The notes beneath the pieces are model-generated. The model saw nothing but the letters and a program-made list of their open reading frames with translations. It searched no databases and was not told the DNA's origin. From Meiothermus sp. (GTDB taxonomy: Bacteria; Deinococcota; Deinococci; Deinococcales; Thermaceae), in assembly GCF_026004115.1 (NCBI RefSeq), contig NZ_BPIM01000001.1, positions 496,001 to 560,000 on the forward strand: a stretch of 64,000 bases of DNA, given 5' to 3'. Of this stretch, positions 7,990 to 26,879 are shown one piece after another. Position 1 is the stretch's first letter. Every line of letters begins with the position of its first letter. Position numbers and translations under genes: made by a program.

Positions 7990-8012
7990 CTGGATCCTCC
8001 TCGGGACACCCT

Positions 8013-8055
8013 CCTGGGCTTAGCCAGGGACTTTTGTCCCTTTAGACGGATTGTA
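8013..8055 (-). promoter_or_regulatory. Candidate ndh promoter with overlapping palindromes
   Basis: On the minus strand TACAAT (8055-8050) is a good -10; the -35 is weak. Downstream of it lie two overlapping inverted repeats, AGGGAC-TTTT-GTCCCT (8026-8041) and CCTGG-GCTTAG-CCAGG (8013-8028), in the predicted 5' UTR. They could be an operator or an RNA switch; which is unknown. Confidence 0.45.
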
Positions 8056-8126
8056 CTTCTTTTCACAAGACACCAGGAAAGCTTCCTTACATTTTGCGGC
8101 CCTGCACTTGTGCCCAGGCTGCCCGT

Positions 8127-10849: not shown

Positions 10850-10993
10850 AAAAATCCCCTCCTATCACCGGGAGGGGAACGAACCTGAGCGGCGGGTGGT
10901 TAGCCCCTGTCACGCTTCCTACGTCGGTGTTAGCCGATTCAGGTTCCAAGGGTATTTCTCAGCCTGCACAGTTGTGCAAGCACCCCCGGTGAC
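10850..10993 (-). ncRNA. TPP riboswitch (THI element) with terminator / SD-sequestering hairpin
   Basis: The minus strand carries the conserved thi-box parts in order: GGGGTGC, GGCTGAGA, TACCCTTGGAACCTGA, CGGCTAACACCG and GTAGGAAGCGTGAC. Helix P1 forms between GTCAC (10993-10989) and GTGAC (10913-10909). After the aptamer comes a hairpin with arms CCCCTCC / GGAGGGG (10877-10871 and 10862-10856), immediately followed by TTTTT and then the thiB ATG. The downstream arm contains the Shine-Dalgarno AGGAGGGG, so the same hairpin can end transcription or block the ribosome. Confidence 0.95.
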
Positions 10994-11032
10994 AAATCTG
11001 ATGATATTATCAAATTCTTCTACTGCAAAGCC

Positions 11033-11860
11033 TCAGCTCACGGTTTGCGTAGCCACCACCCAGAAGCGGGGGTACCTGGTTCGCAGTTTTTGGGCCACAA
11101 ACCGGGCTTCCTCGGCATCCTGGGCGAAGCCAAAAAGGCTCGAGCCCGACCCGGACATCAAGACCCCACGCAGCCCGGTTCGGCGCAGCTCGAGCTTGAG
11201 CTCCTGCAGATAAGGCACCAGCCGGAAAACCGGCTGCTCGAGGGTGTTCCAGTACGGGGGCTCCTCGCCTGCGCGTATGGCGTGCAGGATGCCCGGCAGG
11301 TCTAGCTCGGGCTGCCACTCCTCGGGGCGAAGCTCCCGGTAGGCTTCGGCTGCCGAGACCGCAATGCCCGGATTGAGCAGTACCAGGTGGACCTCGAGCG
11401 GTTCCAGCGGTCTCAGTCGCTCACCCACCCCGCGCGCTTCAGCCAACCCGGCCTCGAGAAAAAACGGCACGTCGGCCCCCAGCTTCAGAGCCAGGGCAGG
11501 CAGGTTGGCAGGGGCTGGATAAAGTTTCGAGAGCGCCCGCAGTGCCGCCGCCGCATCCGAAGAGCCCCCACCCAGCCCGGCGGCTAAGGGGAGGTGCTTC
11601 TCCAGCACCACCTTCACCCCGCCCGGCCAGCCCACGGCGTTAAGATAGGCCACCACGGCCTTGTAGACCAGGTTATCGGGGTTGGCCGGCAGGTTAGAGC
11701 CCCGCACTTCCAGCTCCACCCCCTCGGGAATGGCCTCCAAAAAAAGCCGGTCGGCCACCCGCAATGCAGCAAACACGGTGTGGAGCTCGTGGTAGCCATC
11801 GGCCCGCCGGCCCAACACCGAGAGGCCCAGGTTGACCTTGGCCGGGGCTAGGAGTTCCAT
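11033..11860 (-). CDS. ispE: 4-diphosphocytidyl-2-C-methyl-D-erythritol kinase
   Basis: GHMP-family kinase of the MEP isoprenoid pathway that phosphorylates the 2-OH of CDP-ME. It is 275 residues long. PAKVNLGLSV (6-15, catalytic Lys and substrate Asn) lies at the N-terminus, GYHELHTVF (22-30) follows, and the ATP loop PLAAGLGGGSSDAA covers 91-104 with the catalytic Asp upstream of it. VLMSGSGSSLFGF near the C-terminus is motif 3. The start overlaps the end of ispD by 13 bp, giving an ispD-ispE operon for consecutive steps of the same pathway. Confidence 0.95.
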   Translation of the reverse strand: MELLAPAKVNLGLSVLGRRADGYHELHTVFAALRVADRLFLEAIPEGVELEVRGSNLPANPDNLVYKAVVAYLNAVGWPGGVKVVLEKHLPLAAGLGGGSSDAAAALRALSKLYPAPANLPALALKLGADVPFFLEAGLAEARGVGERLRPLEPLEVHLVLLNPGIAVSAAEAYRELRPEEWQPELDLPGILHAIRAGEEPPYWNTLEQPVFRLVPYLQELKLELRRTGLRGVLMSGSGSSLFGFAQDAEEARFVAQKLRTRYPRFWVVATQTVS

Positions 11861-12624: not shown

Positions 12625-13401
12625 GTGACGTTTTTTGAGGCATTCATTCTGGGGATGTTGGAGGGCCTGACCGAGTTTTTGCCCATCTCCTCCACCGGCC
12701 ACCTGACCCTGGCGGCTCACCTCATGGGCCTGGACATCGAGAACAACCCTTTTATCAAAAGCTTTGTGATTGTGATTCAGCTTGGGGCCATCCTGGCTGT
12801 GCTGGCGCTGTACTTCAAGCGCTTCTTGCGGGATATGGAGGTGTGGAAGCGCATAATCGTAGCCTTCATTCCTACCGGCATCCTGGGGTTTTTGCTGGCC
12901 GATGTGATTGAAAATGTATTCCTGGGCAACGACCTGATTGTGGTGGTGAACCTGATTGGGGTGGGTGTTCTTTTACTCTTTGTGGATCGCTGGCTGCAGC
13001 ACCACAAGCGCTACGACGATGTGAACCAGATGCCCGTGCCTCAGGCGGTGTTGATTGGCCTGTTTCAAGCCGTAGCCATGATGCCAGGAGTCTCGCGCAG
13101 TGGGGCCACCATTGTGGGGGGCATGGCCCTGGGGCTCTCGCGCAAGGCAGCCGCCGAGTTTTCCTTCATTCTGGCCGTGCCCACCATGCTCTCGGCCACC
13201 GGATTTTCCCTGTTGCGCAACCTGAACGAATTCAGGGCGGACAGTTGGGGTCTACTGGCCGTGGGTTTCATCACTGCTTTTGTGGCGGCCCTGCTTACGG
13301 TGCGCTGGTTGCTGGGCTTTGTGAGCCGCAATAGCTTTGTGCCCTTTGCCGTGTATCGCATTGTGATTGGCGTGGTGTACGCGGTGTTCTTTTTGCGCTA
13401 G
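12625..13401 (+). CDS. uppP: Undecaprenyl-diphosphatase
   Basis: Membrane phosphatase (BacA/UppP) that recycles undecaprenyl diphosphate for cell-wall synthesis. GTG 12625 gives MTFFEAFILGMLEGLTEFLP, 258 residues. Both active-site motifs are present: EGLTEFLPISSTGHL (13-27) and PGVSRSG (154-160). About seven membrane helices are evident. TATTCT lies 7 bp before the GTG, hinting at a leaderless transcript, although the -35 is poor. Its lipid substrate is built from IspD/IspE products, so the divergent arrangement with ispDE makes metabolic sense. The stop overlaps that of the convergent ubiX-like gene by 4 bp. Confidence 0.95.
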   Translation: MTFFEAFILGMLEGLTEFLPISSTGHLTLAAHLMGLDIENNPFIKSFVIVIQLGAILAVLALYFKRFLRDMEVWKRIIVAFIPTGILGFLLADVIENVFLGNDLIVVVNLIGVGVLLLFVDRWLQHHKRYDDVNQMPVPQAVLIGLFQAVAMMPGVSRSGATIVGGMALGLSRKAAAEFSFILAVPTMLSATGFSLLRNLNEFRADSWGLLAVGFITAFVAALLTVRWLLGFVSRNSFVPFAVYRIVIGVVYAVFFLR

Positions 13402-13988
13402 TCGAGCTCGAGCTCGGCCATCTCCTTCCAGCGCGGCGCCCGGGGATAATCCAGCCCAAACAAGTCCAGGATGCGCTGGGTGATGAAGGCCAGCAAGTCG
13501 TCTATTTGCCGGGGCTTGTGGTAAAAGCCCGGTGCGGCTGGCAGAATAATGGCTCCGGCCTGGGCGGCCTTGACCATGGCCTCGAGGCTGGGCAAAGGCA
13601 GGGGCGCCTCGCGCGGCACCAGCACCAGGGGGCGGCGTTCCTTCAGGGTAACGTAGGCCGCACGGGTCAGCAGGTTGTCGGCCAGGCCATAGGCCACCTT
13701 AGAAAGGGTGGTCGCGCTACAGGGCACAATCACCATGCCCACAGTGCGAAAACTGCCCGAGGCCACCGCCGCGCCCAGGTCGCTGCTGCGGTGTACCACG
13801 TGGGCCAGGGCTTCCACCGCCTCCACGCTTTGCTCGGCTTCCTCCACCAGCACCCGCTTGGCCCCCTGGGTCATCACCAGGTGGGTCTCGAGGCCCTGAA
13901 TACGGCGCAGGGTTTGCAACAGGTCGAGGGCATAGGGCATCCCGGAAGCCCCCGAAAGCCCCACCACCAGACGCTTGGGTACGCTCAT
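13398..13988 (-). CDS. ubiX: UbiX-family flavin prenyltransferase
   Basis: Links a dimethylallyl group to FMN to make the prenyl-FMN cofactor of UbiD-type decarboxylases. From ATG 13988 (MSVPKRLVVGLSGASGMPYA) it is 196 residues, the normal size. Visible motifs are GLSGASGMPYA (10-20), the VASGSF FMN/phosphate segment, and VIVPCSATTLSKVAYGLADN with the conserved Ser and Lys, then RPLVLVPREAPLP and PAAPGFYHKP, all diagnostic of UbiX/Pad1. TACACT lies 6 bp before the ATG, a leaderless-type spacing with a weak -35. No UbiD gene is in the window. Confidence 0.93.
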   Translation of the reverse strand: MSVPKRLVVGLSGASGMPYALDLLQTLRRIQGLETHLVMTQGAKRVLVEEAEQSVEAVEALAHVVHRSSDLGAAVASGSFRTVGMVIVPCSATTLSKVAYGLADNLLTRAAYVTLKERRPLVLVPREAPLPLPSLEAMVKAAQAGAIILPAAPGFYHKPRQIDDLLAFITQRILDLFGLDYPRAPRWKEMAELELD

Positions 13989-14130
13989 GGGCCAAGTGTA
14001 CTGGCTGGCAAGGCTTGCAAATGCAGCACGGGCCGCAGGTGCATGCAGGCCCATGTGAGACTTTTACTCTCGCCATCTACTTTGTTTTGGTTTTAGTATT
14101 GGGCCTTCAGGCGCGGGATTCCGACCCTTC

Positions 14131-15507
14131 TCAATCTTCTTCGGGTGGCTGCCAGGGCATCCCGCTAAAGAACTCCCGCACCAGCCGACCCACCAGCCCC
14201 CCCAAAGCCAAGAGGGCAACCAGGTTGGGAATGGCCATCAGGCCGTTCAGGGTGTCGGCCACACTAGTCAGGGCCGCCAGACCCCCCAGCGGCCCCACAA
14301 AAGCAAAGGCCACAAAGGTCAGGCGGTAGGGCCAGCGGATGCCCTCGCCAAACAGGTAGGCCGCCCCTTCCTCGCCGTAGAAGCCCCAGGAAACCATGGT
14401 TCCCAGGGCAAAAATGGCCAACATCAACCCCAGCACCGCCACTCCCAGCGGATGCTCGGCAAACAAGAAGCGGGCAGCCTCCACCCGGTCACCCCCCAAA
14501 AAGCGCTGCCAGAGGCCACTGGCAATAAAGGTCAGGGCCATCAGGGTGGTTACCCCCAGGCTCACGAGCATCTCGGTCAGGCCCCAGAAGCCCTGCCGCA
14601 CCGGATGGTCGACCTGGGCCTGGGCGTGGGCGATGGCTGCCGAGCCCAGCCCCGCTTCGTTGGCAAAAATGCCCCGCCCAACACCTGCTTTGAGAATTTC
14701 TGCCAGGCCCAGCGAGACGGCAGCTCCGGCGGCGCCCCCAGCAGCAGCCTGAAAGCTAAAAGCCGAGGAGACAATCAGGGCCAGCGCACCAGGAATATCC
14801 CCAAGGTGGATCAAAAGCAGGGGCAGAATCCCCGCCAGGAACAGGAGCAGCTTGAGCGGTACCATCACCTGGGCAAAGCGGGCAATCAAGCGAATGCCTC
14901 CGGCCAGCAGCACCCCTACCAGCAGTGCTACCAGCAAGCCGGTGATGGCCGGGGGCACATTAAACTCCTGTGCGAAGGCAGCACCCACCGCACCTGCTTG
15001 CGAAAGATTGCCAATACCAAAAGCAGCTATGGCTGTAAATAAGGCAAATAGCCCAGCCAACCAGGCAAACCGCCTGCCCAGGCCATAGCGAATGTAGAGC
15101 ATGGGCCCCCCCATGACCGAACCATCGGTAAACTGGCGGCGGAAATGGATCGCCAGCACCGCCTCGGCGAACTTGGTGGCCATGCCCACCAGATAGGCCA
15201 CCCACATCCACAGCACCGCCCCAGGCCCGCCCATCAGCACGGCACCCACCATGCCGATGAGGTGGCCGGTTCCGATGGTGGCCGACATAGCGACCATAGC
15301 GGCCTGAAAGGGCGTGATCTGGCCCCCGAAGCGCTGGAAGCGCTCGCGGATGGCCCCAAACGTCTCGCGCAGGGCGATACCCAGCCGGCTGAACTGGGGA
15401 AAGCCGGTGCGAAAAGAGAGATAAAAGCCCACCAGGATAAAGATGAGCATCATCCATTCGCCGTAAACGGCCCGGTTGACGAAATCGTTTAAGTAAAGGA
15501 TATCCAT
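14131..15507 (-). CDS. Alanine/glycine:cation symporter (AGCS) family protein
   Basis: Secondary transporter that imports Ala or Gly with Na+ or H+. It is 458 residues long with about ten membrane helices. The family signature region runs PFQAAMVAMSATIGTGHLIG (about 63-82), with the glycine-rich GTGHLIGMVGAVLMGGPGA following, and later GVGRGIFANEAGLGSAAIAHA, the second AGCS hallmark. AGGGTGAG supplies the ribosome site. It follows the DUF4388 gene by 14 bp on the same strand, so the two may be co-transcribed. The substrate cannot be told from sequence alone; alanine is the family default. Confidence 0.9.
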   Translation of the reverse strand: MDILYLNDFVNRAVYGEWMMLIFILVGFYLSFRTGFPQFSRLGIALRETFGAIRERFQRFGGQITPFQAAMVAMSATIGTGHLIGMVGAVLMGGPGAVLWMWVAYLVGMATKFAEAVLAIHFRRQFTDGSVMGGPMLYIRYGLGRRFAWLAGLFALFTAIAAFGIGNLSQAGAVGAAFAQEFNVPPAITGLLVALLVGVLLAGGIRLIARFAQVMVPLKLLLFLAGILPLLLIHLGDIPGALALIVSSAFSFQAAAGGAAGAAVSLGLAEILKAGVGRGIFANEAGLGSAAIAHAQAQVDHPVRQGFWGLTEMLVSLGVTTLMALTFIASGLWQRFLGGDRVEAARFLFAEHPLGVAVLGLMLAIFALGTMVSWGFYGEEGAAYLFGEGIRWPYRLTFVAFAFVGPLGGLAALTSVADTLNGLMAIPNLVALLALGGLVGRLVREFFSGMPWQPPEED

Positions 15508-15521
15508 AGCTCACCCTTGTT

Positions 15522-16307
15522 CTACCCAACCTCCGGCCAGGCTTCCACCAGCATTCCCCGGCCCAGACGCAGCTGACGCAAGTCACGCTCAAAAAGCCCC
15601 AGCCGGCCCTGCATGTTGATGCGAGGCTCGGCGCGCAGGGTGGTCTCCTGGCTTTTGGTACGCAGCCGCACCCGGAACGGGCCTCCCAGCAAACCTTGCC
15701 ACTGCGCATATAGATTTTCGTCTATCACCGCTACCCCCTGCCCTCCGCCGTATAAAGAGAGTACTACCAGGGGTTCGGGTCTAATTTCCAGGTGCAACCG
15801 GGCCTCGAGCAGACCCTGCCGCAAGAGTTTGCTGAGTACCTGGGCAGTCTCGAGGGGCGAAAGACGCGGGTTCATAAGGGTTTTTGCAATACTCTGCCCC
15901 TGTGCGTAGGTGAGCACGGCCAGCTCCAACGGGCTTAGCTTGGTCTTCGCCGGGACCCCCTTTCCCTTCAGTATCAGGCCCCAGTTCTCGGGCAGGCTGA
16001 TTTCCTTCCAGGCTTCAAACTGGTGCAGGATGAGCTGGTGGGTCTCGAGGCTGGGCTCAATGCTGCGTTCGTGGGTTTGCCTTTCGGACTCAAAGCGAAA
16101 TGGCGCCGAGTGAACGCCGGCCAGGAGCTCGAGGGCCTCCAAACCCCGCAGCGAACCTGCTTCAGCATGTACCGGATGCCCTCCAGACAAGTAGATACAC
16201 CCTGAGAAGTTGGGGTGCTCAATGAACAAAGCCCCGCCCCTGGCCGCTCCCATCAGGGTCTCCAGGAGGCGCAAAAGGGGAAACTCCGCCAGGTTGCCGC
16301 TCAACAC
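15522..16307 (-). CDS. DUF4388 (PATAN-like) domain protein
   Basis: A 261-residue cytoplasmic protein from GTG 16307, chosen because GGAGGTGAG sits just upstream. The N-terminal 90 residues (LSGNLAEFPLLRLLETLMGA, then GALFIEHPNFSGCIYLSGG) match the DUF4388 pattern found in gliding and signalling proteins of Thermus, Deinococcus and myxobacteria. The middle holds a helical stretch, and the C-terminal 60 residues form an unassigned beta-rich piece. No receiver or catalytic domain is seen. I infer a signalling or scaffold role. A promoter with an overlapping palindrome precedes it. Confidence 0.7.
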   Translation of the reverse strand: MLSGNLAEFPLLRLLETLMGAARGGALFIEHPNFSGCIYLSGGHPVHAEAGSLRGLEALELLAGVHSAPFRFESERQTHERSIEPSLETHQLILHQFEAWKEISLPENWGLILKGKGVPAKTKLSPLELAVLTYAQGQSIAKTLMNPRLSPLETAQVLSKLLRQGLLEARLHLEIRPEPLVVLSLYGGGQGVAVIDENLYAQWQGLLGGPFRVRLRTKSQETTLRAEPRINMQGRLGLFERDLRQLRLGRGMLVEAWPEVG

Positions 16308-16347
16308 GTTCTCACCTCCCCTCGCTTTAGAACTCGCTCCTGCGCAT

Positions 16348-16377
16348 ATTATCGGGCGCGACCTGGTTATTGTAACC
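16348..16377 (-). promoter_or_regulatory. Promoter of the DUF4388-AGCS pair with a palindrome at the -35
   Basis: On the minus strand TTACAA (16375-16370), a 16-bp spacer and GATAAT (16353-16348). The 13-bp palindrome GGTTA-TTG-TAACC (16365-16377) covers the -35 hexamer and could be an operator. Confidence 0.6.
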
Positions 16378-16471
16378 GCAAGAAACAAAGTGGCTTGGTT
16401 CAAATGAGCCAGACACACGGCCAGGACAGGATTGCCGCGGATAACCCCTATTGGGAATCGGCCCAAGGCTT

Positions 16472-16492
16472 GCGATAAGCTATGAGCTGTCC
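16472..16492 (+). repeat. Tandem degenerate heptamers abutting a start codon
   Basis: GCGATAA, GCTATGA and GCTGTCC run with exact 7-bp period straight into the ATG of the esterase gene. The first unit provides GATAAG, which with TTGGGA (16451-16456) and a 17-bp spacer would be the promoter. Confidence 0.6.
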
Positions 16493-17191
16493 ATGTCGAA
16501 CGTTCTGGTTTTGCACGGTTTTACCTCCCACCCCGTCCTGACCATGGGGCCGCTGCCCGAAACGCTGCGGAAGGCCAGCTTTAACGTTGCCCAACCCGCT
16601 CTTCCTGGCCACGGAACCAGGCCCGAAGACCTGCGCGGCGTGCGCTGGCAGGACTGGCTCCAGACCGCCCGCGCGGCCTACCTGGCGCTGCCGGAACCCA
16701 GGGCCGTGGTGGGGCTCTCCATGGGCGGCCTGCTGGCGGGTTGGCTGGCCGCAGAGCACAAAACCGCCGCGCTGGTGGCCCTGGCCCCGGCCTTGGGGCT
16801 CAAAAACCGCATGGCCTACCTGGCCCCCCTGTTGCATTATTTCAAACCCTGGGCCTTCAGCACCGACCCTGCCGAAGAGGCTAGAAGGCGCGAGCGAAGC
16901 CCCAACTACCCCAACTTTCCCACCAGGGCGCTGGCTGAGTTGATTGCCCTCCAGCAGCGCGTGCCGGAACTATTGCCGCGGGTCTGGGCGCCTGCTTTGG
17001 TGCTCGAGGCTACCCAGGACGACACGGTACCCGAGGCCGCCGTGCGCCGCTATTTTGCTCTTATCGGCGGCCCGCACAAGGAGTACCGTAGCTACCCCAG
17101 CCAGCACGACATGCTCTTAGACCCCCTGGCCCAGCAAATCTCCGACGATATTGTGGCCTGGTTACGCGACAAACTCCCGGCGCAAAAGTAG
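16493..17191 (+). CDS. Alpha/beta-hydrolase, carboxylesterase type
   Basis: A 232-residue single-domain serine hydrolase similar in layout to the thermophilic carboxylesterase Est30. The oxyanion-loop segment is VLVLHGFTSHP (4-14), the nucleophile elbow GLSMGG is near residues 79-84, a likely acid Asp lies in EATQDDTVPE (about 178-187), and the catalytic His is in PSQHDML (about 202-208). ATG 16493 is chosen because upstream sequence is heptamer repeat. The natural substrate is unknown; short-chain esters or lysophospholipids are typical. The 229 bp after it hold a pair of direct repeats and no gene. Confidence 0.87.
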   Translation: MSNVLVLHGFTSHPVLTMGPLPETLRKASFNVAQPALPGHGTRPEDLRGVRWQDWLQTARAAYLALPEPRAVVGLSMGGLLAGWLAAEHKTAALVALAPALGLKNRMAYLAPLLHYFKPWAFSTDPAEEARRRERSPNYPNFPTRALAELIALQQRVPELLPRVWAPALVLEATQDDTVPEAAVRRYFALIGGPHKEYRSYPSQHDMLLDPLAQQISDDIVAWLRDKLPAQK

Positions 17192-18354: not shown

Positions 18355-20028
18355 TCAACCCCTCCACAGCCCCGCGTACACCCCCCCAAGGGCCATGAGC
18401 TCCACATGGGGACCGAGCTCCACAATCCGGCCATTCTCCATGACCACAATCTGGTCGGCGTGCTGCACGGTAGAAAGGCGGTGGGCCACGACCACCACTG
18501 TACGGCCCGGACGGACGGCTTCCAAAGCCGCTACCACCTGCCCCTCGCTGTGCTTATCCAGGGCGCTGGTAATCTCGTCGAGCAGGAGAATTTTGGCCTC
18601 GCGTAAGAGCGCCGCCGCAATCGCCAGGCGCTGCCGCTGTCCCACCGAGAGCCCGCCCCCTTCTTCATCCAGCAGGGTTTGCAGGCTTACCTCGGGGTGC
18701 AGGCCCACAGTCTGCAAGGCTTTTTGCATGGCCTCTGGGATTGCGCCCGGGGCCAGCACCGCCAGGTTTTCCTGTACAGTTCCGGCAAAGAGCATGGGCT
18801 CCTGGGGCACCCAGGCCATGCGGGCGCGCAGCCAGGCCGCATCGTAGCTTTGCAGGTCACGTCCGTCCAGCAAAACCTGCCCTTTGCTCGGCGGGTAGAG
18901 GCCCAGTAGTACCCGCAGGAGGGTGCTTTTGCCCGCCCCCGAGGGCCCCACAATAGCGGTGAAGGAGCCGGGCTCCAGGCACAGGTTGAGGTTTTGCAGG
19001 GTGGCCGCACTGTCCGGATAGCTGTAGCTCAGGTGGCGAAGCTCGAGCCTCCCCTCCAGGGATTCGGGGCGAAGCGCACCCATGGGAGGCGCATAGGGAA
19101 GGCCCAGCAACTCCACCACACGGGCCGCCGCCCCTTCGGCCTGGGCAAACCCGGTGCCCACCCGGCTCAAAACTTGCAAGGGGGCAATGGCCAGGGCCAA
19201 CAAGGTTAGGAACGCAGTCAGATCGCCGGGGGTCATCTGCCCCCGCTGCACCGCACCCACCCCCAGAAAGAGCAGCAGGCCCAAAAGCAAGGTGGTCGCA
19301 AGCTGCCCCAGGGGCAGATTCAGGGCCGAAATCAGGCTGCGGGTAAGCCCCAAGCGGTATTGTTGAAGGTTGCTGTGACGAAACCGGGCGCGCATGAAGT
19401 CTTCGAGGTGCAAGGCCCGAATCAGCTCCAGGCGCCCAAACCCTTCGGCCATGCGGCCAGCCAACCGCTCCAAGGCAGCCTGGGTACGCCGGCTGTAATG
19501 GGTCACCCAGGTTCCAATCCAGCCCAGCAGCAGCGCCATCGGTAATAACACGAGCAGTAGGTACAAGGTGAGTTCGGTGTAGTGGAGCAGGAGTTGCCAG
19601 AGCAAAGCTAGAAGCAGAACCCCCTGCCCCAAAAGCCCCCCCAGGCTATAGAACAGAAAACCCTCGAGCTCCTTCAAATCGGCAATGAGCCGCCCCGTCA
19701 GCCCACCGGGCGAAGTCGGGAGGGCCATCAGGTGGGTCTTAAGCAGGTGCTCGAAGACCCGCTCCCGCCAGACCGCCGGAACCTTGACCGAAAGGTAGCC
19801 CATAAAGGCTTCCAGCGCATACCCGCTCACCACCAATAGCAACAATAGCCCCGCCCCCACCCAGAGCACCTCGCCCAAACGGTCAAACTGTCCTGCCAGC
19901 ACCTGGTCAAAGAGCGGCTTGACCACCCGGCCCGGCAGCCAGGCTTGCGCCACAGCGGGCAAAACCGCCAGCCCTGCCGCCAGCAGGATGTGCGGCCAAA
20001 AAGAGCGCAGGAGTCGGAGGAGGTTCAT
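18355..20028 (-). CDS. MsbA-like ABC exporter (fused TM and ATPase domains)
   Basis: A 557-residue half-transporter that works as a homodimer. The N-terminal 310 residues form the six-helix exporter domain. The ATPase domain follows with Walker A GPSGAGKST (about 362-370), the ABC signature LSVGQRQRLAIAAAL and Walker B ILLLDEITSALD, then the H-loop VVAHRLSTV. It is the last gene of the lpx-type cluster and lies 59 bp after the LpxB-like gene, which suggests that it flips the lipid product, as MsbA does for lipid A. TATCCC lies 6 bp before the ATG with TTAGCC 17 bp further up, a possible leaderless promoter of its own. Multidrug export is the alternative. Confidence 0.85.
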   Translation of the reverse strand: MNLLRLLRSFWPHILLAAGLAVLPAVAQAWLPGRVVKPLFDQVLAGQFDRLGEVLWVGAGLLLLLVVSGYALEAFMGYLSVKVPAVWRERVFEHLLKTHLMALPTSPGGLTGRLIADLKELEGFLFYSLGGLLGQGVLLLALLWQLLLHYTELTLYLLLVLLPMALLLGWIGTWVTHYSRRTQAALERLAGRMAEGFGRLELIRALHLEDFMRARFRHSNLQQYRLGLTRSLISALNLPLGQLATTLLLGLLLFLGVGAVQRGQMTPGDLTAFLTLLALAIAPLQVLSRVGTGFAQAEGAAARVVELLGLPYAPPMGALRPESLEGRLELRHLSYSYPDSAATLQNLNLCLEPGSFTAIVGPSGAGKSTLLRVLLGLYPPSKGQVLLDGRDLQSYDAAWLRARMAWVPQEPMLFAGTVQENLAVLAPGAIPEAMQKALQTVGLHPEVSLQTLLDEEGGGLSVGQRQRLAIAAALLREAKILLLDEITSALDKHSEGQVVAALEAVRPGRTVVVVAHRLSTVQHADQIVVMENGRIVELGPHVELMALGGVYAGLWRG

Positions 20029-20087
20029 ATAGAGGGGATAGGGGGCAGGGCGATGGAGGCTAAATGCACAGGCGCAAAAACTCGACT

Positions 20088-21257
20088 TCAGGAGTTGGCC
20101 AGCACATACGCCACCAGCTTATCGGCTCCGGGCTCTGCTTCCAGGCGCCCCAGTCTGGCCCGGACTTCCTGGGCCCGCTCCTGGCGCAGCAGTTCCAACC
20201 CGGCCAGCGCTACCTCGGTGGGGCTAAAGACCCCGCGTAGCTCTGGGAAAACCCGCTCATTCAGCCACTGGTTCGGCAAGGCCAGGTGGGGAATGCGCGA
20301 GACCAGGCCCCGCACAAACCTTTGCTTGAAGGGCCGGGCCCCGGGCAGGCTCAGAAGCCAGTGCCAGAGGCCCTCCAGCGGCAGCATCTCCGGCTTGTGC
20401 AAGGGCAACAACACCAGCGAGGGGAGGCCGGCCAGGGCCAGCTCGAGGGTGTTGGTGCCGGGAATGGTAATGGCCAGCGAGGCCTGGCGCATGGCCGCAT
20501 AGCGCTCAGGTTCATCCAGCACGGCCACCTCGAGGCCATGCAGGGTACGCAAACCTGCCCCTTCCCAGCTAGCCCCCACACCCCCGATGTCCTGCACCCG
20601 ATGCGCTTGCAAAGCCTCCTCCACAACCGCTTCTGGTAAAAGGCGACTCTTAACCCAGGCAAAACGAAGCTGTGGCTTCTCTTTCGCCATCTGTTCCGCT
20701 GCCGCCAGCAAAAACCCCAGCAGGTAGCGGGCTGCAAAAGGGCGGCTGCCCGCAAACAGCAACACATCGGCGGGCTGGGTGGGTTGCCTGGAGGCTTGGT
20801 TCAGGGCATCCACCACCAGATTTCCTACCACCACTACGCGGGTAGGATCTACTCCCCGGGCTTGCATGGCGCTTTTGGTGCGCTCAGAGTCGACCAGCAC
20901 TGCCCGCAGCCCGGGGTGATGGGCCTTGGCATCGAAGGTATAGGAAAAAGCCGGATAGCCGGTAGCCTTGCTCAGCAGAACCGCATCGCGCGGGGCGCCC
21001 CCCAGCATCAGCACCAACCCCCGCCCTTTGGCTTTTCCCCGCAGAAGCCTACGGGCCAGCTCCGAGCGCCCCGAGATCGCGTCGAGCTCGAGCGCTTTGG
21101 CTTTGGTTTGCTCCGTTCCAGCGGCAAACTGATCCCGGATTAAAAAGAGCTCAATCCAAGCTCCCGGTGCTACTCGTCGCAAGCGCGACAGCACCGGCGG
21201 CACCCAGGTCGAAAGTTCGCCAGGGCCGTTGGTCAGGAGCAGGATTTCATCCAGCAT
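20088..21257 (-). CDS. LpxB-like glycosyltransferase
   Basis: A 389-residue GT-B type protein in the position where lpxB stands in lipid A clusters. The N-terminus reads ILLLTNGPGELSTWVPPV rather than the GEASGD loop of classical LpxB, so it belongs to a divergent LpxB-related group. The C-terminal domain has TIPGTNTLELALAGLPSLV (about 262-280), closely matching the sugar-nucleotide-binding GT-xEAA/LPxV region of LpxB. I infer that it joins two acylated sugars or adds a sugar to the acylated product. No signal or membrane helix is seen; it would be peripheral on the inner membrane. It lies 99 bp downstream of lpxA. Donor and acceptor are unproven. Confidence 0.75.
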   Translation of the reverse strand: MLDEILLLTNGPGELSTWVPPVLSRLRRVAPGAWIELFLIRDQFAAGTEQTKAKALELDAISGRSELARRLLRGKAKGRGLVLMLGGAPRDAVLLSKATGYPAFSYTFDAKAHHPGLRAVLVDSERTKSAMQARGVDPTRVVVVGNLVVDALNQASRQPTQPADVLLFAGSRPFAARYLLGFLLAAAEQMAKEKPQLRFAWVKSRLLPEAVVEEALQAHRVQDIGGVGASWEGAGLRTLHGLEVAVLDEPERYAAMRQASLAITIPGTNTLELALAGLPSLVLLPLHKPEMLPLEGLWHWLLSLPGARPFKQRFVRGLVSRIPHLALPNQWLNERVFPELRGVFSPTEVALAGLELLRQERAQEVRARLGRLEAEPGADKLVAYVLANS

Positions 21258-21356
21258 GTTGCGCTCGGTTCGGCGTCATTCCAGCATCTAGCCGCAGGTT
21301 TTTGCCCAAGCATCGCTATCTGGCTTAAAACTTTATGTGCAGCGTGCTGGACTGCA

Positions 21357-22142
21357 TTACCCCTCAAAACTCGGCTTCCCCCGCACAAAACCCGACAGGT
21401 TGCGTTTGGAAGGAGCCGCCAAAAAGGCCTTCAGGGTTCGCACCTCTTCGGTATCGGGCAGGTTGTCGAGGGGCCTGCCTTCGCGTACCGCCCGGAAGGC
21501 TTGCTCGAGGGCCCGGTAGCGCTCGCCGCTCACCCCAGCCCGGCGCAAACCCACCGTATTCAGGCGGTAATGCAGCGCCGGGCTGCCCTCCGCTAGCGAA
21601 AACGGCAGGACATCCCGGGTGGGTTTGGAGAGGGCCCCCACCATGGCCCGGGTTCCAATGCGTACAAACTGGTGGATGCCAGCCAGCCCCCCCACCACAG
21701 CATAATCGCCGATCTCCACATGCCCTGCCACGGCCACGCTCTGGGTCAGAATCACCCCGTTGCCCACCTGGGCATCGTGCCCCACGTGCACATGGCCCAT
21801 CAGGTAGCAGCCCGAACCCACACGGGTGGGCTGTTCTTCTCTGGTGGAACGGTGCAGTATCACCCCCTCGCGCAAGACCGTGTTGGCCCCCACCTCGAGC
21901 CAGGTCTCCTGACCGCGAAAGCTCAGGTCTTGCGGCACCCCCCCCAGCACCGCGTGTGGCCCTACCTTGACGCCTGCCGCCAGCCGCACAAAGGGGTGGA
22001 TCACCACATGGGCCCCAATCTCGACCCCGGGGCCAATCTCACAGGGTCCCTCAATCACCGCATAGGGCCCTACCTTCACATCGGAGGCCAGCAGGGCCCG
22101 GGGCGAGACCACCGCGGTGGGGTGGATGGCCAGCCGACTCAC
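21357..22142 (-). CDS. lpxA: UDP-N-acetylglucosamine O-acyltransferase
   Basis: First acyltransferase of lipid A synthesis: moves a 3-hydroxyacyl group from ACP to UDP-GlcNAc or an amino analogue. It is 261 residues long, against 262 in E. coli. A left-handed beta-helix of hexapeptide repeats (I/V-G-x4) runs from about 5 to 185, followed by a helical C-terminus (NTVGLRRAGVSGERYRALEQ). The catalytic His is H122 in HVHVGHDAQVG, and QDLSFRGQET (71-80) and AGIHQFVRIG are also LpxA hallmarks. The ATG overlaps the fabZ stop (ATGA), so the two are coupled. Confidence 0.94.
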   Translation of the reverse strand: MSRLAIHPTAVVSPRALLASDVKVGPYAVIEGPCEIGPGVEIGAHVVIHPFVRLAAGVKVGPHAVLGGVPQDLSFRGQETWLEVGANTVLREGVILHRSTREEQPTRVGSGCYLMGHVHVGHDAQVGNGVILTQSVAVAGHVEIGDYAVVGGLAGIHQFVRIGTRAMVGALSKPTRDVLPFSLAEGSPALHYRLNTVGLRRAGVSGERYRALEQAFRAVREGRPLDNLPDTEEVRTLKAFLAAPSKRNLSGFVRGKPSFEG

Positions 22143-22582
22143 GAGACCGCGCCCCCTGTGTCGGAGCGTAGCACAAAGGTCAGGGTGGCCTCGGCCCGCA
22201 GTTCGCCTTCCACCCGGGCCTCGACCCTGACCTTGCCCAATCCCCGCCGGTAGGCCAGCAGTTCCCCTTCTAACATGAGGGTATCGCCTGGGATCACCGG
22301 CTTCTTGAAACGGGCCTCCTCAACCCCCACCAAAAACACCAGCCCCCCGGGCCGGTACTCGGGCTGCTGGGTGACTACCGCCACCGAGCCCTGGGCCATG
22401 GCCTCGATCAGCAGCACCCCCGGCATGATGGGGTAGCCCGGAAAGTGCCCCTGAAAGTGGGGTTCGTTGAAGGTCACGTTTTTAATGGCCCGAAAGCGCT
22501 TCTCGTCGGCTTCCAGAACCCGGTCTATCAGCAAGAAGGGGTAGCGATGGGGCAGAAACTTGAGGATTTCGTAAATGTCCAC
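22139..22582 (-). CDS. fabZ: (3R)-hydroxyacyl-ACP dehydratase
   Basis: Hot-dog-fold dehydratase of fatty acid elongation that competes with LpxA and LpxD for 3-hydroxyacyl-ACP. It is 147 residues long. LPHRYPFLLIDRV (10-22) and the active-site segment EPHFQGHFPGYPIMPGVLLIE (written EPHFQGHFPGYP then IMPGVLLIE; H46 and E60 catalytic) are intact. In many diderms fabZ sits between lpxD and lpxA as part of the lipid A operon, and it is placed the same way here, with a Gfo/Idh gene upstream across a 204-bp spacer that contains two strong hairpins. Confidence 0.95.
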   Translation of the reverse strand: MDIYEILKFLPHRYPFLLIDRVLEADEKRFRAIKNVTFNEPHFQGHFPGYPIMPGVLLIEAMAQGSVAVVTQQPEYRPGGLVFLVGVEEARFKKPVIPGDTLMLEGELLAYRRGLGKVRVEARVEGELRAEATLTFVLRSDTGGAVS

Positions 22583-22687
22583 GGCTTAATACTAAGGGTT
22601 TGGCGCAAGGGGAAAAACCATCCCACCGCAGTAGATGACGTTTTTTGGTTTACTTTGGGCTTGCGGCGTTCTGATCGCGTTTCCCAC

Positions 22688-22758
22688 ATTTACGCTACAC
22701 ACAGTGCAGCGTAAATTACCCCACACGCCATAACATCCAAAGGATGCTTTGTGGGGTA
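22688..22758. other. Two adjacent perfect hairpins between the oxidoreductase and fabZ
   Basis: Hairpin 1 has arms ATTTACGCT / AGCGTAAAT (22688-22696, 22708-22716). It is followed directly by hairpin 2 with outer arms TACCCCACA / TGTGGGGTA (22717-22725, 22750-22758) and a nested CATCC-AAA-GGATG (22734-22746). No T-run follows on either strand, so these look like RNA-processing, attenuation or protein-binding structures within the lpx cluster. Confidence 0.7.
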
Positions 22759-22786
22759 TTCGTGGGAACCGCTCTGAGCTGGCTTT

Positions 22787-23749
22787 TTAGCGGGTCATTA
22801 CCGGTTGCAAAGCGTGGGAGAGATCGAGGGCCAGCTCGAGGGCTTGCAGGTCGTCCTCGAGGGTGACCAGCGAAGGCTCTCCCTTTTGAATTCGATCCAC
22901 AAAGTGCTTGAGCTGGCGGCGCAAGGGATTGTCGTTGTGGATGGCGATGCGCTCGGTCTGTACCTGGGTGCGCCCGTTGGGCTCCACCCGGTCGGGGTCG
23001 GGTTGTACTGGTGGCGAGCGGTGCAACGACAGTTCGGTAAACTCGCTATTAAAATCCAGCCGCAGCACCTCACCGGGCTGGGTAATGGTCAGGGAGCGTT
23101 CAGCCTGAGGGGAAATCCGGCTGGCCGTAAACAGGGCCCGCGCGCCCGAAGGGAAATCCACCACGGCCTGGGCAAACTCGTCCAGACCTTCTACCTGCCG
23201 CCCCACCACGCTGTAGCGCAGCGGTTTTTCCCGCAAAAGCAGCAGCACCAGATCCAGGTCATGGATCATTAGGTCGAGCACCACCCCAATATCGCGTATG
23301 CGCCGGTTGTTGCCCATGCGGCGGGCTTCCAGCACCCAGGGGGTGTTGACCATATTCATGAGGTCGCCCACCGCTCGGTAGAAGCGCACAATATGCCCTA
23401 CCTGCAAAACCACCCCCCGCTGTTCGGCCAGCCGTACCAGCTCCCGCGCCTCCTGCATGGTGCGGGTCATGGGCTTTTCCAGCAGCACATGCACCCCAGC
23501 CTCTAAAAACATTCGGGCCTGCTCGTAGTGAAAGGAGGTCGGCGACGCAATCGAGACCGCCTGCACCCTGCCCAGCAGATCCTCCGGGCTGGCATAGGCC
23601 GGTACTTCCAGGTCCTGCTCGATGGCAGCCTGGCGAAAAGGATCGGGGTCGGCTACCCCAACCAGCCGAACCCCTGGCAACCCTGCGTAGACCTGCGCGT
23701 GGTACGTGCCCATCACCCCCACACCCACAACGCCCACATTTAGCTCCAT
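22787..23749 (-). CDS. Gfo/Idh/MocA-family oxidoreductase (GnnA-like candidate)
   Basis: NAD(P)-dependent sugar oxidoreductase of 320 residues from ATG 23749, chosen for GAGGAT 4 bp upstream. The Rossmann motif VGVVGVGVMGTYHA (about 4-17) and the catalytic-lysine motif HVLLEKPMTRTM (about 89-100) are clear. In Acidithiobacillus and Leptospira the family member GnnA oxidises the 3-OH of UDP-GlcNAc so that GnnB can aminate it for amide-linked lipid A, and gnnA lies next to lpxA. Position between lpxC and fabZ suggests a similar role, but no GnnB-type aminotransferase is in the window, so this is inference. Confidence 0.8.
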   Translation of the reverse strand: MELNVGVVGVGVMGTYHAQVYAGLPGVRLVGVADPDPFRQAAIEQDLEVPAYASPEDLLGRVQAVSIASPTSFHYEQARMFLEAGVHVLLEKPMTRTMQEARELVRLAEQRGVVLQVGHIVRFYRAVGDLMNMVNTPWVLEARRMGNNRRIRDIGVVLDLMIHDLDLVLLLLREKPLRYSVVGRQVEGLDEFAQAVVDFPSGARALFTASRISPQAERSLTITQPGEVLRLDFNSEFTELSLHRSPPVQPDPDRVEPNGRTQVQTERIAIHNDNPLRRQLKHFVDRIQKGEPSLVTLEDDLQALELALDLSHALQPVMTR

Positions 23750-23923
23750 AGAATCCTCGTAACGTGATGCACAAACCCTGCGTTCCAAGCAGGATGATAC
23801 ACTTAACCCCTATTTACAACCAATTTTTGGGGGGCTGGCCTTTAGCAATGGCTCAGGAAAGTCACAGCCTTGTGAAAAGAAGGCCCCCCAACCCTGAGGG
23901 CAGTGGGCCATCCGGCCAAGAAA

Positions 23924-24676
23924 TTAGCTCTGGAGTAGCTTGGCCAGCTCCACATGCAGCCGATGGGAACTGCGGTGCGCCACGAAACGGCCCAGGTAGG
24001 GCCGACCGGCCAAGTACAAATCGCCCAGAAAATCCAGGGCCTTGTGCCAGACCGGCTCATGTAGCATACGGGGGGTGTTGACAAAGCTGTGCTCGCTAAA
24101 GACCAGGGCATTATCCAGTGAGGCTCCTTTAATGAGCCCGCGGGCCCGCATGGCCTCCACCTCCTGTAAAAAGCCAAATGTGCGGGCCGAGGCCAGCTCT
24201 TCCAGCGGCGTGGGTGGGCACTCTACCTGCTGGTAGCCGATTTTGGGATGGGTGAAAAGAATGGTGGTGGTCAGGGAAAAACCTTCGGCTGGCTGGGCCA
24301 TCGCGCTACTGCGCCCCTCCTCTACCCGGATGGTTCCAGCTACCGAAACCGGTGGGGGGCCCAGCGCTGCAAATCCCTTCAAGGCCGCCAGCCATTCTTG
24401 CGCGCTGCCGTCCAGGATGGGAATCTCCGGGCCGGTTACCTCAACTACCAGGCCCTCCCAGATGCCCCGAATGTAGAGGGCTGCCAGCAGGTGTTCAACC
24501 GTCATCAAGCGCTGGTGCTGGTAGCCCAGCACCGTGCAGCGCGTAGTATCAATTACTGTAGAAGCCAAAGGGCGAAACTCGAGCCCCCCCACCCGAAAAC
24601 GCACCGGCCCCTCGGCTGGATGAAACCGTACAGAGCTGGGTTCGCCAGTGTGCAGGCCGATGCCACGAATCGTCAT
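23924..24676 (-). CDS. lpxC: UDP-3-O-acyl-N-acetylglucosamine deacetylase
   Basis: Zinc amidase that commits UDP-acyl-GlcNAc to lipid A. It opens with TIRGIGLHTGEPSSVRFHPA (2-21), the LpxC N-terminal signature. Zinc ligands H62 (in TVEHLLAAL), H211 and D215 (in HKALDFLGDL), the catalytic E61, and H238 (in HRSSHRLH) are all present. At 250 residues it is shorter than the usual 290-305, mainly because the C-terminus stops just after H238 and some insert loops are small. It starts 27 bp after lpxD and has no obvious ribosome site. Confidence 0.92.
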   Translation of the reverse strand: MTIRGIGLHTGEPSSVRFHPAEGPVRFRVGGLEFRPLASTVIDTTRCTVLGYQHQRLMTVEHLLAALYIRGIWEGLVVEVTGPEIPILDGSAQEWLAALKGFAALGPPPVSVAGTIRVEEGRSSAMAQPAEGFSLTTTILFTHPKIGYQQVECPPTPLEELASARTFGFLQEVEAMRARGLIKGASLDNALVFSEHSFVNTPRMLHEPVWHKALDFLGDLYLAGRPYLGRFVAHRSSHRLHVELAKLLQS

Positions 24677-24703
24677 TGGGGTTCCAGTTAAATGGTATAG
24701 AGA

Positions 24704-25699
24704 TTATTTTTGCAGCTCCTTCAAGAATTGCCGCAGACTGCGCTCCGCCGTCGCCAACCAGTCCAGCACGGCCAGGCGCCGCCAGTGCTTGCGAAGGGGC
24801 TGGGCGGGAATGCCGCCGGCCCAGGTCTCGCCCGGAGGCACGTCTTTCGAAATCCCACTGCCGCCCGTTAGCCTGGCTCCTTTACCTATGCGCACATGGT
24901 CGGAGAGCACCACCCACCCGCCCATCAGCACGTCGTCCCCCACGACCGAGCTGCCACCAATCGCGCTACTACCCACCATCACCACACCTTTGCCAATTTG
25001 GACGTTGTGGCCAATATCGGTGAGGTCGCCGATTTTGCTGCGGGCCCCGATACGGGTCTCCCCTACCACGCTGCGCTGTACCACGCAGTTGGCCCCCAGC
25101 TCGACCCCATCCTCCAAGACCACCCGGCCGGTGTGGGGCAGCCGTTCTCCATTCTGAAACCCAAACCCCACCACCCCCAGGACAGAGCCTGCCCCAATTT
25201 TGCAATCCGCGCCAAGCCAGGTATTGCGGTAGAGGGTCACCCGGGGCTCGAGCACCGTCCGGGGGCCCACCTCCACCCCCTCGCCCACATAGCAGTACGG
25301 TGCAATTACCGCTCCCGCAGCCACTCGAGCTCCCCGGCACACCAGTACATACGCCCCAACCGAGGCGGTGGGGTCTACCTGAGCCCCGGCTTCGATGGTG
25401 GCGCTGGGGTGAACCCCCACACCAGCCCAGGTTTCGCGCTCATCAAAAAGGGCCAGAATCCGCGACCAGGCTTGATGTACCGCCGGCACACGAATCCGAC
25501 TGATGGTATCTGGGCAAGGGCTGGTTTCGTCCAGTATTAAAGCTGCACCACTGGCCAGGGCAACCTCGAGATACCTCGCCTCGCGCACCACCACCAGCTC
25601 GCCCGGCCCGGCCCGGTCGGGGGCTGCCAGGCGCTCAATTTCGAGGTCGGGGCCCTCGAGGCGCCCTCCTATCTCCTGGGCAATTTCAGAAAGCAACAT
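24704..25699 (-). CDS. lpxD: UDP-3-O-acylglucosamine N-acyltransferase
   Basis: Adds the second, amide-linked 3-hydroxyacyl chain. The 331-residue protein has an N-terminal uridine-binding domain (about 1-95, with GPGELVVVRE), a long left-handed beta-helix (about 96-290), and a C-terminal helix (HWRRLAVLDWLATAERSLRQ). The catalytic His corresponds to H231 in LTDIGHNVQIG, and GAGSVLGVVGFGFQ (169-182) is the classic LpxD segment. As the first gene of the cluster it is preceded by a promoter 12 bp upstream of the ATG. Confidence 0.94.
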   Translation of the reverse strand: MLLSEIAQEIGGRLEGPDLEIERLAAPDRAGPGELVVVREARYLEVALASGAALILDETSPCPDTISRIRVPAVHQAWSRILALFDERETWAGVGVHPSATIEAGAQVDPTASVGAYVLVCRGARVAAGAVIAPYCYVGEGVEVGPRTVLEPRVTLYRNTWLGADCKIGAGSVLGVVGFGFQNGERLPHTGRVVLEDGVELGANCVVQRSVVGETRIGARSKIGDLTDIGHNVQIGKGVVMVGSSAIGGSSVVGDDVLMGGWVVLSDHVRIGKGARLTGGSGISKDVPPGETWAGGIPAQPLRKHWRRLAVLDWLATAERSLRQFLKELQK

Positions 25700-25832: not shown

Positions 25833-26879
25833 TTACCGCTTTAGTACGTTGTCGGAAGTAACCAGGGCATCCCGCAACACGTGCAGCATGTCGAGGGCCC
25901 GGCCCGTGCCCAGCGCCACCGCTTCCACCGCATTTTCGGCCACCACCACCGGTACCCCCGTGGCCTCCTGAAGCAACAGGTCCAGGTTGCGCAGCAAGGC
26001 CCCCCCGCCGGTCAGCAAAATGCCCCGGTCGATGATATCGGCCACCAGTTCGGGGGGGGTGGTCTCGAGGACGCTCTTCACGCCCTGGACAATCTTTTCC
26101 AGGGGTTCCTTGAGGGCCTCTACCACATCGTCGGTGGTCACTTCGATGCTCTTGGGCAGGCCCGAAATCAGGTCGCGACCACGGACTTCGGCCACCGCAC
26201 CCTGATCACCAGGCGTACGCTTGGCGGCGCCAATTTTGATCTTGAGCTCTTCCGCCGTGCGTTCTCCGATCAGCAAGTTGTACTTATTACGGATGTAGCG
26301 AATGATGGACTCGTCGAACTCGTTACCGGCAATCCGCAGACTGGTGGCGCGCACAATGCCGCCCAGCGAAATCACCGCAATATCGCTGGATCCCCCCCCA
26401 ATATCCACCACCATGCTGCCGGTCGGTTCAGCAATCTTGATACCAGCCCCGATGGCCGCCGCCAGGGGTTCGTCGATCAGGTAGGCCCGCTTAGCACCGG
26501 CTTCCACAATTGCTTGCACCACCGCCCGACGCTCGACCTCGGTTACGCCGGAAGGCACGCCCACCATCACCTGTGGTCTGAAAAAACGCAGGGGGGGCAG
26601 AACCTTTTTGATAAAGAGGGTGAGCATCCGCTCAGTTAGGGTATAGTCAGCAATTACACCATCCTTGAGCGGGCGGGCCGCCACGATGTTGCCAGGCGTG
26701 CGCCCCAGCATCCGGTAGGCTTCGGCCCCCACTGCCTTGACCTCTTTGGTGTCACTTACCATAGCAATAACCGAAGGTTCGCGCAGTACAATTCCTTTAC
26801 CACGCACATAAATCAGCACCGAGGCGGTGCCCAGATCAATACCCACATCCTCGCCGCGAAACGAAAACATCCCAGCCAT
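25833..26879 (-). CDS. mreB: MreB rod-shape actin homologue
   Basis: Forms filaments under the inner membrane that guide cell-wall synthesis in rod-shaped cells. The 348-residue length is normal. The actin-fold nucleotide motifs are intact: phosphate 1 VGIDLGTASVLIYV (about 12-25), connect 1 AAIGAGIKIAEPTGSMVVDIG (the final part, SMVVDIGGGSSDIAV, is phosphate 2), adenosine ILLTGGGALLRNLD and connect 2 (about 287-330). The start ATG sits 8 bp after a TACAAT -10, so the mRNA has little or no leader. No mreC or mreD follows; the spacer to lpxD is 133 bp and shows no gene. Confidence 0.97.
   Translation of the reverse strand: MAGMFSFRGEDVGIDLGTASVLIYVRGKGIVLREPSVIAMVSDTKEVKAVGAEAYRMLGRTPGNIVAARPLKDGVIADYTLTERMLTLFIKKVLPPLRFFRPQVMVGVPSGVTEVERRAVVQAIVEAGAKRAYLIDEPLAAAIGAGIKIAEPTGSMVVDIGGGSSDIAVISLGGIVRATSLRIAGNEFDESIIRYIRNKYNLLIGERTAEELKIKIGAAKRTPGDQGAVAEVRGRDLISGLPKSIEVTTDDVVEALKEPLEKIVQGVKSVLETTPPELVADIIDRGILLTGGGALLRNLDLLLQEATGVPVVVAENAVEAVALGTGRALDMLHVLRDALVTSDNVLKR

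Follow-up and report, generated by a model that had tools for sequence, protein, structure and literature searches.

The stretch analysed here (the window) comprises 64,000 nucleotides of the 3.35 Mb genome of a Meiothermus sp. (G000:C1:496001-560000). It carries, 3' of mreB, a lipid A-type biosynthesis cluster in the order lpxD, lpxC, gnnA-like, fabZ, lpxA, LpxB-like and ATP-binding cassette (ABC) exporter, all on the reverse strand (Table 1), which may make an acylated diamino-sugar lipid other than classical lipid A. The intergenic distances along the cluster, in gene order, are 27, 135, 204, -4, 99 and 59 bases. A terminator-like hairpin between lpxC and the gnnA-like gene may divide the cluster into two transcripts. 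An earlier note on this DNA had reported a cluster of this type, and its open reading frames do lie at the positions given there; the profile matches of LpxA, LpxC, LpxD and FabZ are far above chance and that of LpxB is weak. The gene list of that note was incomplete in one respect, as the GnnA-type gene was overlooked, and this gene changes the sugar that is predicted.

Table 1. Positions in the window of the cluster genes, the upstream neighbour and the hairpin, with the supporting matches.
Feature	Position	Strand	Evidence
mreB	25833..26879	-	Pfam 2.9e-137; conserved upstream neighbour of the cluster
lpxD, UDP-3-acyl-glucosamine N-acyltransferase	24704..25699	-	NCBIfam PRK00892 1.1e-77, TIGR01853 1.1e-68; PDB LpxD 3.8e-45
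lpxC, deacetylase	23924..24676	-	Pfam LpxC 3.6e-67; PDB LpxC 2e-38, with alignment
Terminator-like hairpin, lpxC/gnnA gap	23883..23901	-	Consensus scan, pattern match only; region total 13 against 9.3 expected
gnnA-like, UDP-GlcNAc 3-dehydrogenase, Gfo/Idh/MocA fold	22787..23788	-	NCBIfam NF040723 5.7e-55; PDB 7bvj 9.4e-39
fabZ, 3-hydroxyacyl-acyl carrier protein dehydratase	22139..22582	-	NCBIfam 7.9e-52; 4-base overlap with lpxA
lpxA, UDP-amino-sugar acyltransferase	21357..22142	-	NCBIfam PRK05289 2.5e-83; PDB LpxA 2e-52; Leptospira 3hsq 1.1e-48, with alignment
LpxB-like GT-B glycosyltransferase, NGPGEL/PGTNTLE family	20088..21257	-	Pfam LpxB 2.8e-5 (weak)
MsbA-like ABC exporter	18355..20028	-	Pfam ABC_tran 6.4e-36, ABC_membrane 8.2e-28

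The cluster was followed through a survey of 111 genomes of the phylum, among which Deinococcus itself is apparently not represented; the genomes are related by descent and do not count as 111 independent trials. Group names are presumed, with g4 taken as Thermus, g13 as Oceanithermus, G009 as Marinithermus and G108 as Truepera radiovictrix. The position next to mreB is the same across families f1, f3, f4 and f5 (Trueperaceae), which indicates that mreB marks the ancestral site of the cluster. A recent gain was rejected because the location behind mreB is constant in most lineages. The residues named in the earlier note are all found (E61, H62, H211, D215 and H238 of LpxC, H122 of LpxA, H231 of LpxD), and in alignments with solved structures of LpxC, LpxA and LpxD they coincide with the residues that form the metal site or the base. 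H122 of LpxA and H231 of LpxD, the latter within an IGHN motif, are of the catalytic type. By these residues the three enzymes are intact and active-looking, as had been claimed, and both the catalytic residues and the gene order are conserved across the same four families. In the alignment, K173 of LpxA falls on K171 of the Leptospira enzyme, presumably the acyl-length limiter there; LpxA of the Trueperaceae lacks K173, and acyl chain length may therefore differ between families. The residue preceding the catalytic histidine of LpxA was considered as a mark of amino-sugar selectivity and dropped, since glycine is also found there in LpxA 4eqy.

LpxC is encoded in 61 of the 111 genomes. It has no match in g4, a large sister genus, or in the named controls Thermus composti and Deinobacterium chartae, and the whole cluster is missing in g4 and in most f4 genomes. 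The view cited in the earlier note, that the phylum lacks lipopolysaccharide (LPS), no longer stands, both in light of the LpxC count and because, by the inference of Antunes et al. (2016), the Deinococcus/Thermus ancestor had LPS genes and losses came later (PMC5007114). The occurrence of lpx genes in Deinococcus-Thermus is already published (PMC5007114), and what is new here is the proposed chemistry. One Meiothermus genome (G030, rated 99% complete) has no LpxC and carries the LpxB-like gene only as a fragment, which is probably an assembly gap and possibly a recent loss. In f3 and the Trueperaceae a gene of about 560 codons lies between mreB and lpxD (L057 6684-8372); it is not found there in Meiothermus, and its product gives a weak match to SpoIVB-type peptidase S55 (2.6e-4).

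The gnnA-like protein matches NF040723, an archaeal model, below the model's 450-bit cut-off, and its probable true start is the ATG at 23749. Its best PDB match is 7bvj, which we take to be GnnA of Acidithiobacillus ferrooxidans; the second-best match is at 3e-17. An EKP motif with K105, together with D172 and H176, is invariant among the aligned relatives. GnnA oxidizes the 3-hydroxyl of uridine diphosphate (UDP)-N-acetylglucosamine (UDP-GlcNAc), and GnnB then transaminates the product to the 3-amino sugar nucleotide UDP-GlcNAc3N (PMC5644692, PMC8036547). The gnnA gene is in the cluster at every searched full-cluster locus of the Trueperaceae, Meiothermus and G009 lineages; full clusters of f3 (e.g. 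G006, L048, L139) are without it.

A candidate for the GnnB partner is found away from the lpx cluster, at G000:C1:1928181-1929323. It is one of four full-length DegT-family aminotransferases in the host genome, and because no diagnostic profile model exists for GnnB, it was assigned by family, distribution and neighbourhood. Orthologues of at least 72% identity are present in all genomes of Meiothermus and of its two sister genera with LpxC, and also in G009, where the match is the sole full-length DegT enzyme; the best matches in g4 and in Oceanithermus-like genomes have 59% and 55% identity, and those in the Trueperaceae 42-56%, so that orthology there is less certain. No match at 1e-60 is found in f3 genomes, where absence of the candidate coincides with a gnnA-free full cluster. 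Across the ten genomes measured, its distance to an LptF/LptG gene is 29-103 bases; in the host it stands about 74 bases downstream of such a gene. Its sequence relatives with solved structures are C3-keto-sugar aminotransferases (7b0d, QdtB, DesV-type 2oga, WbpE). From family, distribution and lptF/G linkage, the gene is probably the GnnB-type partner of GnnA. The other full-length DegT genes (466442, 2089690 and 450963) were ruled out, as they have no close G009 orthologue. In this part of the host genome (L106 7179-11858, approximately 1.928-1.933 Mb) the candidate stands behind two genes whose products, of 565 and 209 residues, have no Pfam match and look like envelope proteins.

The LpxB-like protein scores 21 bits against the 190-bit equivalog cut-off of TIGR00215 (canonical LpxB). 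Canonical LpxB binds UDP through R201, T277 and E281, with D98 as the predicted base (PMC5785501). Equivalents of R201, T277, E281 and N316 are retained in the alignment; the protein keeps G170-S-R172, T268, E272 and LPN at 327-329, of which R172, T268 and E272 are invariant in 15 relatives. In the profile of these relatives the motifs NGPGEL-T-W, G-R, PGTNTLE and LPN are invariant. An NGPGEL loop stands where LpxB has GExSGD, and the D98 region reads LGG. Since the UDP-binding equivalents are present and the D98 region is LGG, the donor side appears to be retained and the acceptor side altered. The AlphaFold model (predicted local distance difference test score 91) was placed by Foldseek in the GT-B fold near UDP-GlcNAc 2-epimerase, LpxB (5w8x, 3.2e-8) and MurG.

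The NGPGE family was also found in Cyanobacteria, Sericytochromatia and Aerophobetes in a scan of named genomes. An Aerophobetes locus (L193) carries a canonical LpxB (7702-8838), an LpxB-like gene (10013-11248), an ABC exporter (12659-14398) and a TIGR03492 protein (15500-16729). The window protein aligns over its full length with the LpxB-like protein of this locus at 32% identity, and with the canonical LpxB in the donor half only; in a cyanobacterial locus (L216) a canonical LpxB and an LpxB-like gene lie side by side. The earlier note had described an LpxB-like transferase with an altered N-terminal loop; the altered loop is borne out, and by family the protein is distinct from LpxB, both being present in L193. 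Judged by sequence, this family is separate from canonical LpxB and from TIGR03492 (lipid-A-disaccharide-synthase-related); the tree of LpxB relatives fits the NGPGE proteins either as a single clade or as surrounding canonical LpxB. TIGR03492 resembles the window protein in its GT-B superfamily and in an N-terminal N-G-x-G/A-E motif, but identity with it was ruled out by the score (22 bits against a 219-bit cut-off), the separate clades and the presence of both in L193. The LpxB-like gene occurs in 62 of the 111 genomes; 59 have it together with LpxC, 2 have LpxC only, 3 LpxB-like only and 47 neither. At three loci of Aerophobetes and another bacterium (L180, L182, L193) the LpxB-like, ABC exporter and TIGR03492 genes lie close together with no lpxA, lpxC or lpxD nearby, a grouping that is possibly a module for glycolipid synthesis and export.

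Several steps of the classical pathway were not found. LpxH (TIGR01854) and LpxI (PF06230) are absent from all 111 genomes, with positive controls, and so is the transferase KdtA (PF04413) for 3-deoxy-D-manno-oct-2-ulosonic acid (Kdo). No canonical LpxB above the cut-off is found in any of them, although the controls from E. coli, Caulobacter, Synechococcus and Bacteroides were all positive. LpxK (PF02606), searched in the host genome, is absent there. The earlier note had stated that LpxH/I, LpxK and the Kdo transferase are not in the cluster; for all but LpxK this is extended to the whole phylum, and the guess made there of an unusual acylated amino-sugar lipid gains support from these absences. 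One complete-looking, single-contig Trueperaceae genome (G083, CP070651.1, bin86) retains the gnnA, fabZ, lpxA, LpxB-like and exporter genes (L143 5648-9182); lpxD and lpxC are missing from the interval between gnnA and the gene upstream, and LpxC is not encoded anywhere else in this genome. Provided that the assembly is correct, the downstream genes would be retainable in the absence of lpxC and lpxD, in keeping with a product other than classical lipid A. In f3 and f5 a conserved methyltransferase gene follows the exporter; considered as the possible missing hydrolase, it was discarded.

The exporter is MsbA-like, as described in the earlier note, and is full-length, with one membrane and one ATPase domain; it matches the MsbA model at 9.5e-103 with 344.6 bits, below the 602-bit cut-off. 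The search for Lpt parts covered LptF/LptG and the N-terminal OstA-type domain. LptF/LptG is present in 110 of the 111 genomes, including the large genus without LpxC, and the LptA-type domain in 102, again including LpxC-free genomes. On this distribution, the Lpt bridge of Deinococcota must carry other lipids in addition to any LpxC product.

The sequences themselves show what the genes encode, which catalytic residues they keep, which genes are absent and which occur together; the sugar, donor, acceptor and transport route of the following pathway are deduced from them. UDP-GlcNAc would be oxidized at C3 by GnnA and converted to UDP-GlcNAc3N by the unlinked GnnB-type aminotransferase; this rarer starting sugar, and acyl chains that are all amide-linked, are predicted because GnnA is in the cluster and a probable GnnB partner is elsewhere in the genome. 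LpxA would acylate the 3-amino group, LpxC would remove the acetyl group and LpxD would acylate the 2-amino group, to give UDP-2,3-diacyl-2,3-diaminoglucose (UDP-2,3-diacyl-GlcN3N) with 3-hydroxyacyl chains in amide linkage only. The steps through LpxD are supported by well-conserved enzymes. The nucleotide would not be converted to lipid X and condensed, because LpxH, LpxI and canonical LpxB are not found. Instead, the LpxB-like protein would transfer the acylated sugar from it to an acceptor. Because no lipid X-making enzyme is found, this acceptor is probably a compound other than lipid X. The ABC exporter would then flip the product, and a bridge of LptF/G and LptA type would take it to the outer membrane. 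This pathway as a whole is favoured at a probability of about 0.5. Its glycosyl transfer step, in which the NGPGE protein moves acylated GlcN3N from UDP to a lipid other than lipid X (e.g. a glycerolipid or a polyprenyl-linked acceptor), is tentative, with a little less than an even chance. Classical Kdo2-lipid A is unlikely.

A serious rival, plausible though clearly short of even odds, is a Kdo-less GlcN3N disaccharide as in Cyanobacteria, in which the LpxB-like protein is the disaccharide synthase, an unrecognized hydrolase replaces LpxH/LpxI, and export is by the MsbA-like and Lpt parts. The order lpxD-lpxC-fabZ-lpxA-lpxB equals that of the four-enzyme cluster of Cyanobacteria and Dictyoglomi (PMC3087551), and the Dictyoglomus cluster likewise ends with an LpxB-related protein (PMC5167688). 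Membership of the LpxB superfamily with the R201, T277, E281 and N316 equivalents, and the wide distribution of LptF/G (110/111) and LptA-like parts (102/111), also agree with a disaccharide. It is opposed by the lack of the GExSGD motif and of a D98 equivalent, by the absence of LpxH and LpxI from every genome, and by the coexistence of canonical LpxB with the NGPGE family in L193 and L216, so that the two are not simply one enzyme. Several points weigh against the proposed transfer to another acceptor. The LpxB-like gene occupies precisely the place of lpxB in other clusters, the D98 position depends on a distant alignment, and the amino-sugar selectivity of LpxA is not readable from its sequence. 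The negative result for LpxH and LpxI comes from a search that did not include LpxG-type and other UDP-diacylglucosamine hydrolases. Cyanobacteria are without LpxH, with only lpxA/C/D/B listed (PMC3087551), and still produce LPS; the absence of LpxH is therefore weak proof. Published work on Meiothermus lipids is without any diaminoglucose lipid (PMC3035268, PMC3035272).

In that work, the glycolipids of Meiothermus contain galactosamine that bears 2- or 3-hydroxy fatty acids in amide linkage, in a basic structure common with Thermus (PMC3035268, PMC3035272). The cluster might thus supply the N-(3-hydroxyacyl)-hexosamine of glycolipid GL-1b (tetraglycosyl glycerolipids), the hexosamine of which bears amide-linked 3-hydroxy fatty acids (PMC3035268, PMC3035272). 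This is improbable, as the N-acyl-hexosaminyl glycolipid is also common in Thermus (PMC3035268), and the known glycolipids are unlikely as the main product because g4, presumed to be Thermus, is without LpxC. Those glycolipids also have a single acyl chain on a sugar with one amino group, for which neither GnnA nor LpxA and LpxD together would be needed. It is more improbable still that the genes are the remnant of a pathway with a marginal or regulatory product. The loss of the whole cluster in g4 and most f4 genomes and its partial loss in G083 are in line with a remnant, but the catalytic residues and gene order kept over f1, f3, f4 and f5 would have been erased by drift.

The proposed pathway shares with GlcN3N-type lipid A (Acidithiobacillus, Campylobacter, Leptospira, rhizobia) the gnnA gene beside lpx genes, a probable GnnB-type aminotransferase and predicted all-amide primary chains. 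These organisms possess canonical LpxB, LpxK and Kdo transferase, and Meiothermus differs from them in the linkage of its GnnB candidate to lptF/G. With the Kdo2-lipid A (Raetz) pathway of E. coli it has the chemistry of LpxA, LpxC and LpxD and the MsbA/Lpt-like export parts in common; LpxH/LpxI, canonical LpxB, LpxK and KdtA of that pathway were not found. The four-enzyme cluster has been known for Cyanobacteria and Dictyoglomi since Opiyo et al. (2010) (PMC3087551), and it resembles that of Meiothermus in the order lpxD-lpxC-fabZ-lpxA-lpxB-like and in being without LpxH, LpxK and Kdo transferase. In Meiothermus, by contrast, gnnA is inserted and the NGPGE family stands in place of canonical LpxB; Cyanobacteria have members of this family alongside canonical LpxB, away from the lpxA/C/D clusters that were found. 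In the part of the literature covered, no mention was found of GnnA, GnnB or the separate LpxB-like family in Deinococcota.

Elsewhere in the window, positions 55435-58014 encode a molybdopterin oxidoreductase with a Rieske_3 Fe-S domain, a composition like that of arsenite oxidase large subunits. At 44888-49212 a molybdopterin subunit (1068 residues) lies beside an NrfD-type membrane subunit, in an arrangement that is polysulfide reductase-like or alternative complex III-like.

The Deinococcota are central to the debate on the origin and loss of the outer membrane. Conserved and active-looking LpxA, LpxC and LpxD in the absence of LpxH, canonical LpxB, LpxK and Kdo transferase point to a relative of lipid A that has probably been missed by lipid surveys. 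The GnnA/GnnB finding names the target of a search, 2,3-diaminoglucose that bears 3-hydroxy fatty acids in amide linkage, the distinct LpxB-like family offers a defined enzyme for identification of the acceptor, and cluster-free relatives (g4, presumably Thermus) are natural negative controls. If the proposed transfer to an acceptor other than lipid X takes place, Deinococcota would have a class of saccharolipid distinct from lipid A, and a related glycosyltransferase-exporter module would be present in Aerophobetes and Sericytochromatia. The outer membrane of Meiothermus may thus hold a lipid A-like molecule that has so far been overlooked.

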